DNA from: Candidatus Altimarinota bacterium | Lineage (GTDB): Bacteria > Patescibacteriota > Gracilibacteria > JAHISY01 | Direction of reading: 5' to 3' | NCBI GenBank assembly: GCA_028690585.1 | Contig: JAQVAZ010000006.1 | Span: forward strand, 1 to 41,711 | DNA length: 41,711 nucleotides | Shown: positions 6,885-10,349 of the stretch, piece by piece | How the letters are laid out: the number at the start of each line of letters is the position of its first letter | Numbering within the stretch: position 1 is the stretch's first letter | Made by a program: the position numbers and the translations under genes | Notes under the pieces: model-generated | The model's database searches: none | Seen by the model: only the letters and a program-made list of their open reading frames with translations | What the model was told of the DNA's origin: nothing

Positions 6885-6913
6885 TTGACGAAAGAGATGT
6901 TTATAAGTAATAT
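6885..6913 (+). promoter_or_regulatory. strong sigma70-type promoter of the atpH-atpA insert
   Basis: TTGACG (6885-6890), 17 bp, TAATAT (6908-6913). This is among the best matches to the vegetative consensus in the window. Transcription would begin near 6920, about 20 nt before the structured leader and about 160 nt before the small ORF at 7081. Confidence 0.7.
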
Positions 6914-6941
6914 TGCAAACCATTCTTTGAAATCTCGGAAC

Positions 6942-7060
6942 TGTTGAGGTCCTTCGGGAATCGTGCTTCGCTTCACGGTCAAAAAAGTTACCAATTAGGT
7001 AACCAACTTTCGACCAAAACCGTTGTGGCTAGCCGATTGATTCCCGTGGCCGCCTCAACA
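6942..7060 (+). promoter_or_regulatory. multi-branched structured RNA leader (candidate cis-regulatory RNA)
   Basis: Nested and branched complementarity is visible by eye. Outer stem TGTTGAGG 6942-6949 with CCTCAACA 7053-7060 (8 bp). After an internal loop, CGGGAATC 6955-6962 pairs with GATTCCCG 7039-7046 (8 bp). The enclosed region holds GTG/CAC (6963-6965/6974-6976), and a long arm GGTC 6977-6980 with GACC 7012-7015 that contains GTTACC 6987-6992 with GGTAAC 6998-7003 around an AATTA loop. An 8-base palindrome GGCTAGCC lies at 7027-7034. The outer stem ends directly at the A9G8 tract before the ORF. I do not recognise it as a known riboswitch or ribozyme. Confidence 0.62.
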
Positions 7061-7080
7061 AAAAAAAAGGGGGGGGAACT

Positions 7081-7308
7081 ATGCAAGTTCCGAGATTCTG
7101 CAGCAAGATGGTTTACCCAATCAGAAAGGTAGAAGAAGGCCATTGTCGCGATGATCGCTTGGCTGAGGCCATTGAGACCTACCTCAATGCGGTTACTGGG
7201 TCGTTTAGAATCATCTCCATCACCCCGATAACCGATAGCACCAACACCAACCCCCCGCAAACCTACACCCAGGGGGTTATCGTCACCATCGAATACCTTT
7301 TGGAATGA
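7081..7308 (+). CDS. small protein of unknown function, 75 aa, in the atpH-atpA insert
   Basis: Not recognised. The ATG is preceded by nine A and eight G (7060-7076) and then AACT; the G-run can pair with the anti-Shine-Dalgarno CCUCC using one G-U, so this is one of very few genes here with a strong ribosome binding site. The protein reads MQVPRFCSKM..., a central helix (DDRLAEAIETYLNAVTG), a strand (FRIISITPI), a polar Asn/Thr/Pro turn, and a closing strand (GVIVTIEYLLE): a compact mixed alpha/beta fold is plausible. Codons are richer in C at the third position (ACC, ATC, TAC) than in the flanking atp genes, hinting at separate origin. It ends with TGA. A hairpin terminator candidate follows at 7324. 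Confidence 0.6.
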   Translation: MQVPRFCSKMVYPIRKVEEGHCRDDRLAEAIETYLNAVTGSFRIISITPITDSTNTNPPQTYTQGVIVTIEYLLE

Positions 7309-7323
7309 AGCGGCCAAATTTCC

Positions 7324-7369
7324 GGCGCGGTTTCTGGATCAACATCATGTTTATCCTACCGCGCCTTTT
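7324..7369 (+). terminator. hairpin with T-run ending the inserted unit
   Basis: GGCGCGG (7324-7330) pairs with CCGCGCC (7359-7365), followed by TTTT. Inside the loop GGAT 7336-7339 pairs with ATCC 7353-7356 and AAC with GTT, giving one extended hairpin. The T-run is short (four), so termination efficiency is uncertain, and it might also be a 3' stabilising structure. Confidence 0.6.
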
Positions 7370-7469
7370 CTCTTTGCAGTTTTTTTGAGATAAAAACTCA
7401 CTCCAAAATTATCAATATCGTTATTCTCTCTTCCCTATTTCTGCAACACTTTTTTTATTCATAACCAGA

Positions 7470-7498
7470 TTGATTTCTCCCCTACCCACCGCTAAAAT
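7470..7498 (+). promoter_or_regulatory. promoter of atpA-atpG
   Basis: TTGATT (7470-7475), exactly 17 bp, TAAAAT (7493-7498). The C-rich spacer (CTCCCCTACCCACCGC) resembles that of the atpZ promoter, so the two halves of the ATP synthase cluster may be co-regulated. The predicted start is about 25 nt before the atpA ATG. Bases 7370-7469 otherwise show nothing recognisable. Confidence 0.72.
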
Positions 7499-7529: not shown

Positions 7530-9035
7530 ATGAAACTCAACGCCAGCGAAATCAGCTCACTTCTCAGTAAGCAAATCAAAGATTTCAAACCAACTGCAGA
7601 GAAATCTAATACCGGTGTCGTTACCGAGGTAGGTGATGGTATCGTGAAGATTCACGGTTTATCTGATGCAGCGATGGGAGAAATGGTGGAATTCCCAGGT
7701 GGCAAGCTTGGAAGTGTCTTGAATCTTGAGGAAGATAGCGTAGGTGTGATGCTTCTCGATGAATGCCCAGAGCTGCGCGAAGGTGATGAAGTAAAAACTA
7801 CTGGCAGAATCATGGAAGTGCCAGTCGGAGATGCGATGATTGGCAGAGTGGTAAATACTCTTGGCCAACCAATCGATGGTAAAGGCAAGATTGCTACGAA
7901 GAAGTCTAGAAGAATTGAAGTGGTGGCGCCTGGTATCATCCAACGCCAAGGAGTAGCTACTCCACTCCAGACTGGTATCAAAGCGATTGACTCCATGATT
8001 CCAGTCGGTAGAGGCCAGCGTGAGTTGATTATCGGAGATAGGCAGACTGGCAAGACTGCGATTGCTATCGATACCATTATCAACCAAAAAGGCCAAAACT
8101 GTCTTTGTGTTTATGTAGCTATCGGTCAGAAAGCTTCTACAGTTGTGAAAACTGTGGCGAAACTGGAGGAATACGGCGCAATGGAATACACCACTATCGT
8201 CTCTGCGACTGCTGCTGACCCAGCCGCGTTGCAATTCCTCGCGCCTTACGCAGGTGTCACTATCGCAGAAGAATGGATGTGGGCTGGCAAAGATGTTTTG
8301 ATTGTTTACGATGATTTGAGTAAACAAGCTGCGGCTTACAGACAAATCTCTCTCCTTCTCCGCAGACCACCAGGAAGAGAAGCTTATCCTGGAGATATTT
8401 TCTACCTCCATTCCCGCTTGCTAGAAAGAGCTGCGAGACTTAGTGAAGAGTTGGGAGGAGGTAGCATCACTGCTTTGCCAGTCATTGAGACTCAGGCGAA
8501 TGATGTATCTGCTTATATCCCTACTAATGTAATCTCCATCACTGATGGCCAGATTTATCTCGAAAGTGATTTGTTTTACAAAGGTATTCGCCCAGCAGTA
8601 AACGCCGGCTTATCCGTTTCTCGTGTGGGAGGCGCTGCGCAGACTAAAGCGATGAAGAGTATCTCAGGCAATATCCGCCTTTCTCTCGCGCAATTCCGCG
8701 AGTTGGAAGCTTTCGCGCAGATTGGAAGTGATTTGGATGAAGCAACCAAACGCCAGATTGAAAGAGGGAAACGCATCGTGGAAATGCTGAAGCAACCACA
8801 ATATTCTCCACTCCCAGTAGTGAATCAAGTGGAAATTATTTACGCAATGAATAAGGGTTATCTCGATGATGTAAAAGTAGAAGATATCCAACGCTTCGAA
8901 AAAGATTTGCATGATTTCATGCATGCGAATTACGCGAAGCTAGAGAAAGAATTAACTGCTTCTGGAAAACTCGAAGAGAAAACCGAGAAGGAATTGGCGA
9001 AAGCGATTGAGGATTTCAAGAAAGGCTGGAAGTAG
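7530..9035 (+). CDS. atpA: F0F1 ATP synthase subunit alpha
   Basis: Non-catalytic nucleotide-binding subunit of the F1 head, 501 residues, full family length. The N-terminal beta-barrel domain ([14 protein letters not shown]), the Walker A motif GDRQTGKT near residue 170, the Walker B region [13 protein letters not shown], the ATPase alpha/beta signature with [22 protein letters not shown], and the C-terminal helical bundle starting around [20 protein letters not shown] are all present. It has its own promoter at 7470 and lies after an insert that separates it from atpH. atpG follows about 100 bases downstream. Confidence 0.97.
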
Positions 9036-9138
9036 AAAGCTGGTAGATTTTAGTTAGTAGATGGTAGAAAGTGAAAAATAAAAAAGAATTCCAAAAACAA
9101 TTAGAACAATTTGAACATTTACAACAACTACAACAATA

Positions 9139-10041
9139 TTGTCCCTGCTTGATCTCCGCCGCCGTCTGAAATCTATCCGCAATACGCAGAAAATTACCAA
9201 AGCGATGCAGATGGTTTCCGCTAGCAAGATGAAGAAAGCGCAGGATGCAGCGCTTGCTGGCCGGCCTTATGCAGTGGAGCTAGAGAAGCTGATTCGCAAT
9301 CTCGTAAGAAGCAATAAGGTAGGTTTGCAGAATCGTTTTTTCGAAAGAAGAGGTGGCAGCCGTGGCAAGAAAGATACTAAGAAAATTCTTTTCCTTTTTT
9401 TCACGGCAGATAGAGGATTATGCGGAGCTTTCAATTCCAATATCATTCGCTATCTCTACCGTAGAGAGATGCAACCGAATCAAGAGAAAGCAATTGCTTG
9501 CATTGGAAGGAAGGGAATGCAGTTTTTCAAACACATGGGAGGCAGCGTAGTAGCGGAATTCGAAGGCCTCGGAGATAAACCAAGCTATCTCGCGACAGCT
9601 CCGATTACGAAGCTGGCAACCGATGGATTCCTCAAAGGTGAATGGGATGAGGTGAGACTGGTTTACAACCACTTCGTAAATACGATGCAGCAGGAAATCA
9701 CTGAGAAAATCCTACTGCCTTTCACTGCGGAAGTAGTGGAGGCTAAAGTAGATGCAGCGAAGAAGGAAAAAGAGAAAGAAGTAGAATACATTTTCGAGCC
9801 TAGCCCAAAAGCGGTTTTTGATCGGATTCTCCCCCGCTACCTCGAGACGATTGTGTATCAATCACTGCTTGAATCCAACGCAAGTGAGCAATCTGCGCGT
9901 ATGGTGGCAATGAAATCGGCGACAGAAAACGCAGGAGAACTCATGGGTAGCCTCACACTAGAAATGAATAAAGCCCGCCAAGCTGGTATCACTACAGAAA
10001 TCTTGGAAATCGTCGGTGGTGCAGAAGCATTGGCAGACTAA
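9139..10041 (+). CDS. atpG: F0F1 ATP synthase subunit gamma
   Basis: Central rotor shaft, 300 residues. The N-terminus (LRRRLKSIRNTQKITKAMQMVSASKMKKAQ) and the C-terminus (RMVAMKSATENAGELMGSLTLEMNKARQAGITTEILEIVGGAEAL) form the paired coiled coil that enters the alpha-beta head; both match the family closely. The middle has the Rossmann-like part with FFTADRGLCGAFNSNI. The start is the TTG at 9139, as the preceding bases are a degenerate ACAACAACTACAAC stretch and the family N-terminus begins there. The usual next genes, atpD and atpC, are not found downstream. Confidence 0.95.
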   Translation: MSLLDLRRRLKSIRNTQKITKAMQMVSASKMKKAQDAALAGRPYAVELEKLIRNLVRSNKVGLQNRFFERRGGSRGKKDTKKILFLFFTADRGLCGAFNSNIIRYLYRREMQPNQEKAIACIGRKGMQFFKHMGGSVVAEFEGLGDKPSYLATAPITKLATDGFLKGEWDEVRLVYNHFVNTMQQEITEKILLPFTAEVVEAKVDAAKKEKEKEVEYIFEPSPKAVFDRILPRYLETIVYQSLLESNASEQSARMVAMKSATENAGELMGSLTLEMNKARQAGITTEILEIVGGAEALAD

Positions 10042-10058
10042 TCAACAATCAAAAACTA

Positions 10059-10349
10059 ATGAATGAAGCAGATAAAAATCTCGTTGTTATTTTGCATCCC
10101 GCTGAAGCGCGCGAAGTAATCATGGGCGTATTAACTCAAGGTCTTAACCCTATTCATGCAGAAATTGATAAACTGGGCGAAGGAATGAATAGATTTGGCG
10201 TAGCGATTGATAGAACCAGATCAATAATTCATGGTATTGGAAATATAGGTGATACTATGGCACGCAGCGCGAATGAATCACACGACCTAACGACATCAGT
10301 CAGAGGCTCAGTTATCCCTGGAAGATATGGAAAACATAATAGAACTTAG
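10059..10349 (+). CDS. hypothetical protein, 96 aa, downstream of atpG
   Basis: Not recognised. It starts 17 bases after the atpG stop on the same strand, so probably co-transcribed. It is a soluble, possibly helical protein; the middle (AEIDKLGEGMNRFGVAIDRTRSIIHGIGNIGDTMA) is amphipathic and reminiscent of short coiled-coil linkers. There are no membrane segments, cysteines or known motifs. It takes the place where atpD would be expected. No Shine-Dalgarno sequence precedes the ATG. Coding potential is judged from composition and frame length only. Confidence 0.55.
   Translation: MNEADKNLVVILHPAEAREVIMGVLTQGLNPIHAEIDKLGEGMNRFGVAIDRTRSIIHGIGNIGDTMARSANESHDLTTSVRGSVIPGRYGKHNRT

Follow-up and report, generated by a model that had tools for sequence, protein, structure and literature searches.

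In rRNA operons, a boxA element is accompanied by a leader–trailer helix, which in Escherichia coli is essential for 30S biogenesis (PMC10250234). A boxA also lies 6 nt from the Shine–Dalgarno (SD) sequence of E. coli suhB, where binding of NusB–NusE represses translation (PMC5725501). We compared these systems with a block found at positions 6885–7386 of a window from Candidatus Altimarinota bacterium, the window being the whole stretch of 41,711 nt that was analyzed (contig C23 of genome G000; 1.05 Mb, 98.7% complete). The block is situated between the end of atpH (6842) and the start of atpA (7530). Comparison with related genomes showed it to be, at the level of sequence, one copy of a lineage-specific transcription unit with a conserved structured leader and a cargo that differs between copies.

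These boxA–hairpin units share with the leader of rRNA operons, the site of NusB–NusE antitermination, the same extended boxA at the transcript start and a structured leader behind it; most units also have a complementary trailer. They differ in carrying as cargo an mRNA that has an SD of its own and in a leader arm that pairs mainly within a local hairpin; in addition, their trailer arms are short (7–11 bp), and no boxB-like stem was noted before the boxA of the window. With the 5′ UTR of suhB and other boxA-controlled mRNAs (PMC5725501), the units have in common that boxA precedes a protein gene within its 5′ UTR and is near the SD; in suhB the distance is the 6 nt mentioned above, whereas in the boxA–hairpin units a hairpin brings boxA near the SD. 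This covarying hairpin of 78–136 nt between boxA and SD, the changing cargoes, the trailer pairing and the different phylum distinguish them from suhB.

All features of the window unit are on the forward strand. The promoter-like sequence TTGACG-17-TAATAT reported by a first-pass annotation of this DNA was present at 6885–6913; with 9/12 matches it is weak alone, and such matches are common (9 found vs 5.9 expected by chance in 5 kb). TTGAC-type promoters were also found directly 5′ of boxA in other units, and transcription of the window unit is expected to begin near 6920. The 5′ end of this expected transcript carries a boxA-like sequence, TTCTTTGAAATCTCGG (6923–6938), matching the boxA of the genome's own rrn leader, TTCCTTGAAATCCCGG (G000:C48). 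It is followed by the conserved leader hairpin (6942–7060), captured by the RNA models R1–R3 described below, with the basal stem GTTGAGGT (6943–6950)/GCCTCAAC (7052–7059), an asymmetric internal loop and an apical part longer than in most copies. Folding of the leader (6926–7102) was better than that of 200/200 shuffles (z −3.3), bearing out the structured leader of the first-pass annotation; the whole block also had a z of −3.3 against shuffles. The leader arm TGGCCGC (7047–7053) has two alternative partners, the hairpin and the trailer.

In the A9G8 tract at 7060–7076, the 8-nt G-run is the SD; main-group copies have AAAGGAGG or similar in its place. The length of this homopolymer pair at the ribosome-binding site could differ between cells (phase variation). 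The SD-led ORF of 75 codons, the cargo of the window unit, starts with ATG at 7081 and ends at 7308, and the trailer arm GCGGCCA (7310–7316), complementary to 7047–7053, stands directly 3′ of the stop codon. The hairpin plus T-run described in the first pass corresponds to a terminator at 7324–7386, formed by an 8-bp G+C stem (7324–7331/7358–7365) and a T-rich tail (z −2.25). A perfect 12-bp inverted repeat, present in the window copy only, connects AATCTCGGAACT (6931–6942) with AGTTCCGAGATT (7086–7097) in codons 2–6 of the ORF; its pairing would loop out the SD and the start codon. A retron, with this repeat as a1/a2, or an intron was rejected: no reverse transcriptase gene is located beside the block, and there was no Rfam match. 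The window copy is an atypical member among the sequences compared, with a probably soluble 75-aa product, the A9G8 tract, the longer hairpin and the private 12-bp repeat. The boxA, the covarying hairpin and the leader–trailer complementarity were absent from the first-pass annotation.

The leader recurs in related genomes. The covariance model R1, whose only input sequence was the window leader, hit seven loci in five further genomes, all of them outside atp operons. Three of these five genomes also yielded leader pieces of 85% identity by BLASTN, independently of R1; with the whole block as a query, the credible BLASTN matches were leader pieces only. The R1-matched loci follow a common plan: a TTGACA-type promoter, CTTTGAAATCNCGG or one of its variants, a hairpin GTTGAGGTCTTTC...CTGAAGCCGCCTCAACAA, AAGGAGG, ATG and a differing ORF. 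R2, a model based on eight copies (alignment A4, MAFFT), recovered further, sequence-diverged copies, including one in the window's own genome (G000:C12:15470–15585). Finally, a search of 353 genomes of the class with a model of 14 copies (R3; E <= 0.01) gave 15 copies in 8 genomes, namely all six genomes of family f1 and two genomes of other families (G015 and G448). Thus, recurrence outside atp operons was confirmed for the leader, and the homologous loci are not merely drifted sequence, with leader and trailer conserved and the ORFs not. The first-pass reading of the block as a portable RNA-plus-small-protein module is largely right: its RNA part stands, as the leader recurs before different ORFs, while the 75-aa protein was not found elsewhere.

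Covariation was analyzed in the 14-copy alignment (A6), whose fitting to the model favors the pairing counts and in which several copies are close relatives: 95.6% of the cells were paired, and two-sided changes occurred in 16/21 pairs. Doubly changed cells numbered 55 vs 15 in shuffles, none of 500 shuffles reached any of the observed measures, and sliding the partner columns by 1–3 destroyed the signal. The independent MAFFT-only alignment of eight copies reproduced this helix, with two-sided changes in five pairs. One U.G pair adjoining the internal loop was invariant in 14/14 copies.

No Rfam 15 family matched the leader above its gathering score, the only match being tRNA in the flank; the boxA–hairpin leader is a structured-RNA family absent from Rfam 15. 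Like the cis-regulatory leaders and riboswitches of Rfam, it is a folded 5′ UTR upstream of the SD in which nucleotides of the internal loop are conserved. It differs from them in having no Rfam 15 match and in its cargo genes, whose lack of an evident common pathway argues against a metabolite riboswitch. Two kinds of apparent matches were discarded. Those of an A/G-tract + ATG pattern in G028 and G001 proved unrelated (a coding stretch and a bidirectional terminator), and four non-Patescibacteria matches of a GTDB pattern scan were devoid of the boxA and hairpin context, about four being expected by chance from the specified bases.

Each leader copy precedes a different gene, and most of the products look like unrecognized membrane or secreted proteins. 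Judged by eye, several cargo ORFs resemble genes for short membrane proteins, for proteins with signal peptides or, in one case, for a lipoprotein. In a Pfam search of the scanned cargoes, none reached the cut-off except one CDP-alcohol phosphatidyltransferase, encoded in G004 (E 6.8e-12). Two units next to dnaJ (recognized by eye from the flanking sequence), G003:C93 and G005:C115, have kept leader and trailer while their ORFs cannot be aligned, which points to constraint on the RNA instead of the ORF. The second leader copy in the window's genome (G000:C12:15470) stands before membrane-protein-like ORFs of 109 and 93 aa. G003:C6 and G004:C41 have a common diverged leader before CDP-alcohol phosphatidyltransferase-like genes, the only recognizable enzyme cargo; the G004 product is the one with the Pfam match given above.

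The 75-aa product of the window unit matched no known family, in agreement with the first-pass annotation. Searches of Pfam, PHROGs, NCBIfam, PADLOC, PDB, IMG/VR, GTDB genomes, phages, plasmids and 380 genomes of the phylum yielded no relative, the outcome being either no match or chance matches only (E about 0.02–0.04). AlphaFold2 without an alignment predicted, with low confidence, a strand–helix–strand–strand (beta–alpha–beta–beta) arrangement with a mean pLDDT of 63.7, for which Foldseek found no significant match. Considering the low-confidence model and the Foldseek result, DUF4177-, Cse60- and dodecin-like folds, which had been considered, were dropped, and no fold is claimed. Having neither relatives nor a significant fold match, the protein by itself is uninformative on function.

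We also weighed the reading that this ORF is fortuitous and untranslated and that the block is a structured non-coding RNA, which we consider unlikely. An ATG ORF of 75 codons is unremarkable in the block, as this length was reached by 129/1000 shuffles; it lacks protein relatives, and its codon usage, as first noted, is unlike that of the atp neighbors (log-odds −0.07 vs 0.29 to 0.68; GC3 0.64 vs 0.36–0.53). The ORF of G003:C93 is moreover broken in an A-tract. However, the own frame of the window ORF scored far above shuffles (0/1000 as good), though the antisense frame scores too; a strong SD is present at the right distance, and the same leader precedes the phosphatidyltransferase gene of G004.

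In most units, the 3′ arm of the leader was complementary to a stretch around the last stop codon of its own unit, despite diverging sequences. The arms are AAGCCGCC and GGCGGCTT in the main group, GGGTTGCTGT and ACAGCAACC(T) in the pair of units carrying phosphatidyltransferase-like cargo, AGGCCGTTCCT and AGGAACGGTCT in G003:C94, CTCCCCTTTCT and AGAAAGGGGAG in G001:C38, CAGCTGCCC and GGGCAGCTG in G000:C12, TGGTCGCC and GGCGACCA in G448, and TGGCCGC and GCGGCCA in the window, where 7047–7057 and 7306–7316 form 10/11 pairs. With one representative of each of seven sequence groups, and with the last stop codon chosen by eye in two multi-gene units (G000:C12 and G448), the true assignment of leaders to trailers scored best of 5,040 permutations. 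The match of the window copy is weak and not distinctive (6/13 other trailers score as high). G003:C60, a boxA unit outside the model family that was not used to define the pairing, had no leader–trailer match when tested.

In naked RNA, the local hairpin was favored over leader–trailer pairing in most of the ten copies tested, the exceptions being the window and G003:C94. In the window, the two states are close in energy, the probability of leader–trailer pairing being 0.38 or 0.96 according to which ends are included in the fold; in G003:C94, the leader–trailer state beats the local hairpin, and neither is the predicted optimum. An attenuator-like switch between arms of the leader, the ORF end and the terminator is possible by sequence; it was rejected, the energies being mostly against it.

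The same arms might be read as inverted repeats (GCCGCC ... GGCGGC) of DNA cassettes, by which recombination or transposition swaps the ORFs. The conserved flanks around unrelated ORFs, a tandem arm–SD–ORF–arm repeat in G002:C4 and the odd composition of the window ORF would agree with such swapping. Nevertheless, the arms are wholly different between groups and complementary within each unit, as expected for pairing within the unit and not for a common site of one recombinase. We noticed no recombinase gene next to any of the units read; the leader patterns were not found in viral contigs, and the 75-aa protein was not found in phages and plasmids. The two units beside dnaJ share their position, with an ORF that diverged in place. 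Cassettes of this kind are therefore quite improbable in our view. As for a phage, plasmid or transposon module, the window unit did not recur in the mobile-element collections searched. An integron cassette was also rejected: the GTTGAGG/CCTCAAC arms resemble attC core sites and would not fit their consensus in order and end bases.

The boxA elements were assigned by sequence. The boxA in the rrn leader of G000, GCTTCCTTGAAATCCCGG, lies 3′ of a boxB-like stem, and the rrn leaders of G002 and G003 contain GCTCCTTGATTTCTCGG. The pattern YCYTTGAWWTCNCGG had 21 matches in the six family genomes vs 1 match of the reversed-pattern control; some of the 21 fall in coding sequence, and the rest include rrn leaders, boxA–hairpin units and leaders of a signal-peptide protein and a surface protein. 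The rrn-type boxA without the hairpin of these units was seen in the leader of a gene for a large protein, either surface-located or secreted (G000:C33:2203), and, outside the family, in the leader of an S-layer-homology gene (G020:C5:34587). It may be that boxA marks highly expressed envelope genes in the class.

The order of parts in a unit is promoter, boxA, 1–6 nt, hairpin, SD, ORF(s) and terminator. In the 15 copies, boxA and stem are 1–6 nt apart, the hairpin spans 78–136 nt, and the stem is 0–22 nt from the SD. The hairpin thus varies in length while the flanking distances stay short, as a role in placing boxA beside the SD would predict. Pairing of boxA with the SD region was predicted in 12/15 copies, with maximum pair probabilities of about 0.4 or higher; in G015:C13 the predicted partner of boxA is not a clear SD, and in the window copy the predicted pairing is near zero.

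By analogy with the rRNA-operon leader and the suhB 5′ UTR, we consider it fairly probable that the boxA–hairpin leader couples Nus-factor antitermination with translation control, the role of the trailer being included in this estimate. The NusB–NusE(S10) complex would bind the emerging boxA and stay with RNA polymerase, and a hairpin of any length would put boxA within a few nucleotides of the SD. Nus-factor occupancy would then control antitermination as well as the small gene's translation. On completion of the unit, the trailer could pair with the leader, either as feedback or, like its counterpart in rRNA operons, to aid processing and stability.

A leader acting only as a 5′ mRNA stabilizer or insulator, whose hairpin blocks decay and whose boxA keeps the polymerase going with translation unregulated, is rather less likely. 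It would make the units high-output cassettes for abundant small envelope proteins, and many cargoes are indeed membrane- or secreted-like; boxA without the hairpin also precedes S-layer-domain and large surface-protein genes, and the hairpin adjoins the SD and leaves it uncovered. What such a stabilizer leaves unexplained is the conserved internal loop with its invariant U.G pair, the short boxA–stem and stem–SD spacing and the trailer complementarity.

A class of Patescibacteria might express fast-changing small orphan proteins by an rRNA-operon-like design that combines boxA antitermination, a leader hairpin and leader–trailer pairing. Such a Nus-factor regulon of small proteins would be built on a new RNA family whose hairpin connects boxA with the ribosome-binding site and whose trailer signals that the transcript is complete; we propose this only tentatively and consider it possible rather than probable. 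Regulation in Patescibacteria is little studied, and an undescribed, strongly covarying RNA family linked to the rRNA-operon boxA and to unrecognized envelope-like small proteins offers a concrete regulon to test. If true, Nus-factor control of mRNA, demonstrated at suhB and at a toxin–antitoxin gene in Enterobacteria, would extend to a distant phylum, with a hairpin placing boxA beside the ribosome-binding site. BoxA and hairpin together also provide a DNA handle on small genes that protein searches miss.

Regarding the position of the window unit, atpH and atpA had been described as normally contiguous. Across the class they are usually close, and within the family this held for G004 and G002, with spacings of about 22 nt and about 55 nt, respectively. 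It did not hold for G001, where the two genes are ~410 nt apart with no evident gene in the gap, or for G003 and G005, where they are on separate contigs with unrelated sequence upstream of atpA. The atpH–atpA junction is loose in the family, and the window block is one among several unrelated fillings. The location of the unit between the two genes probably reflects this loosened junction and is incidental.

The separate promoter of atpA recognized in the first pass (TTGATT-17-TAAAAT, 7470–7498) lies outside the unit and marks its downstream border. It is conserved, together with a T-rich stretch upstream of it, in 4/6 family genomes (G000, G001, G003 and G005). The suggestion that the block regulates ATP synthase expression, in cis on atpA or in trans via the 75-aa protein, is unsupported. 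It has in its favor only the position between atpH and atpA, whereas no other copy is found near atp genes, family members without the block at the junction have the same kind of atp genes, and the conserved atpA promoter stands downstream of the block's terminator. We regard such regulation as extremely improbable.

Several minor observations concern individual copies and the surrounding genes. In the tandem unit of G002:C4 (13681 onward), TCGCCGCCTCAACAATCAACGAAAGGAGG, which comprises a leader arm and an SD and lacks both boxA and the 5′ strand of the stem, precedes the second ORF and stands directly 3′ of the GGCGGC end of the first. In another frame, the small ORF of G003:C93, broken in its A-tract, would encode a longer peptide of membrane type; the break may stem from a sequencing error, from phase variation or from decay. 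An ORF of 96 aa without a Pfam match is located directly 3′ of atpG in the window (10059–10349). The atp genes are split in the family, atpA being also apart from atpH in G003 and G005. Beyond the window genes atpA–atpG (7530–10041), the AtpA query had a second match on another contig (G000:C11:41044), which is probably atpD.
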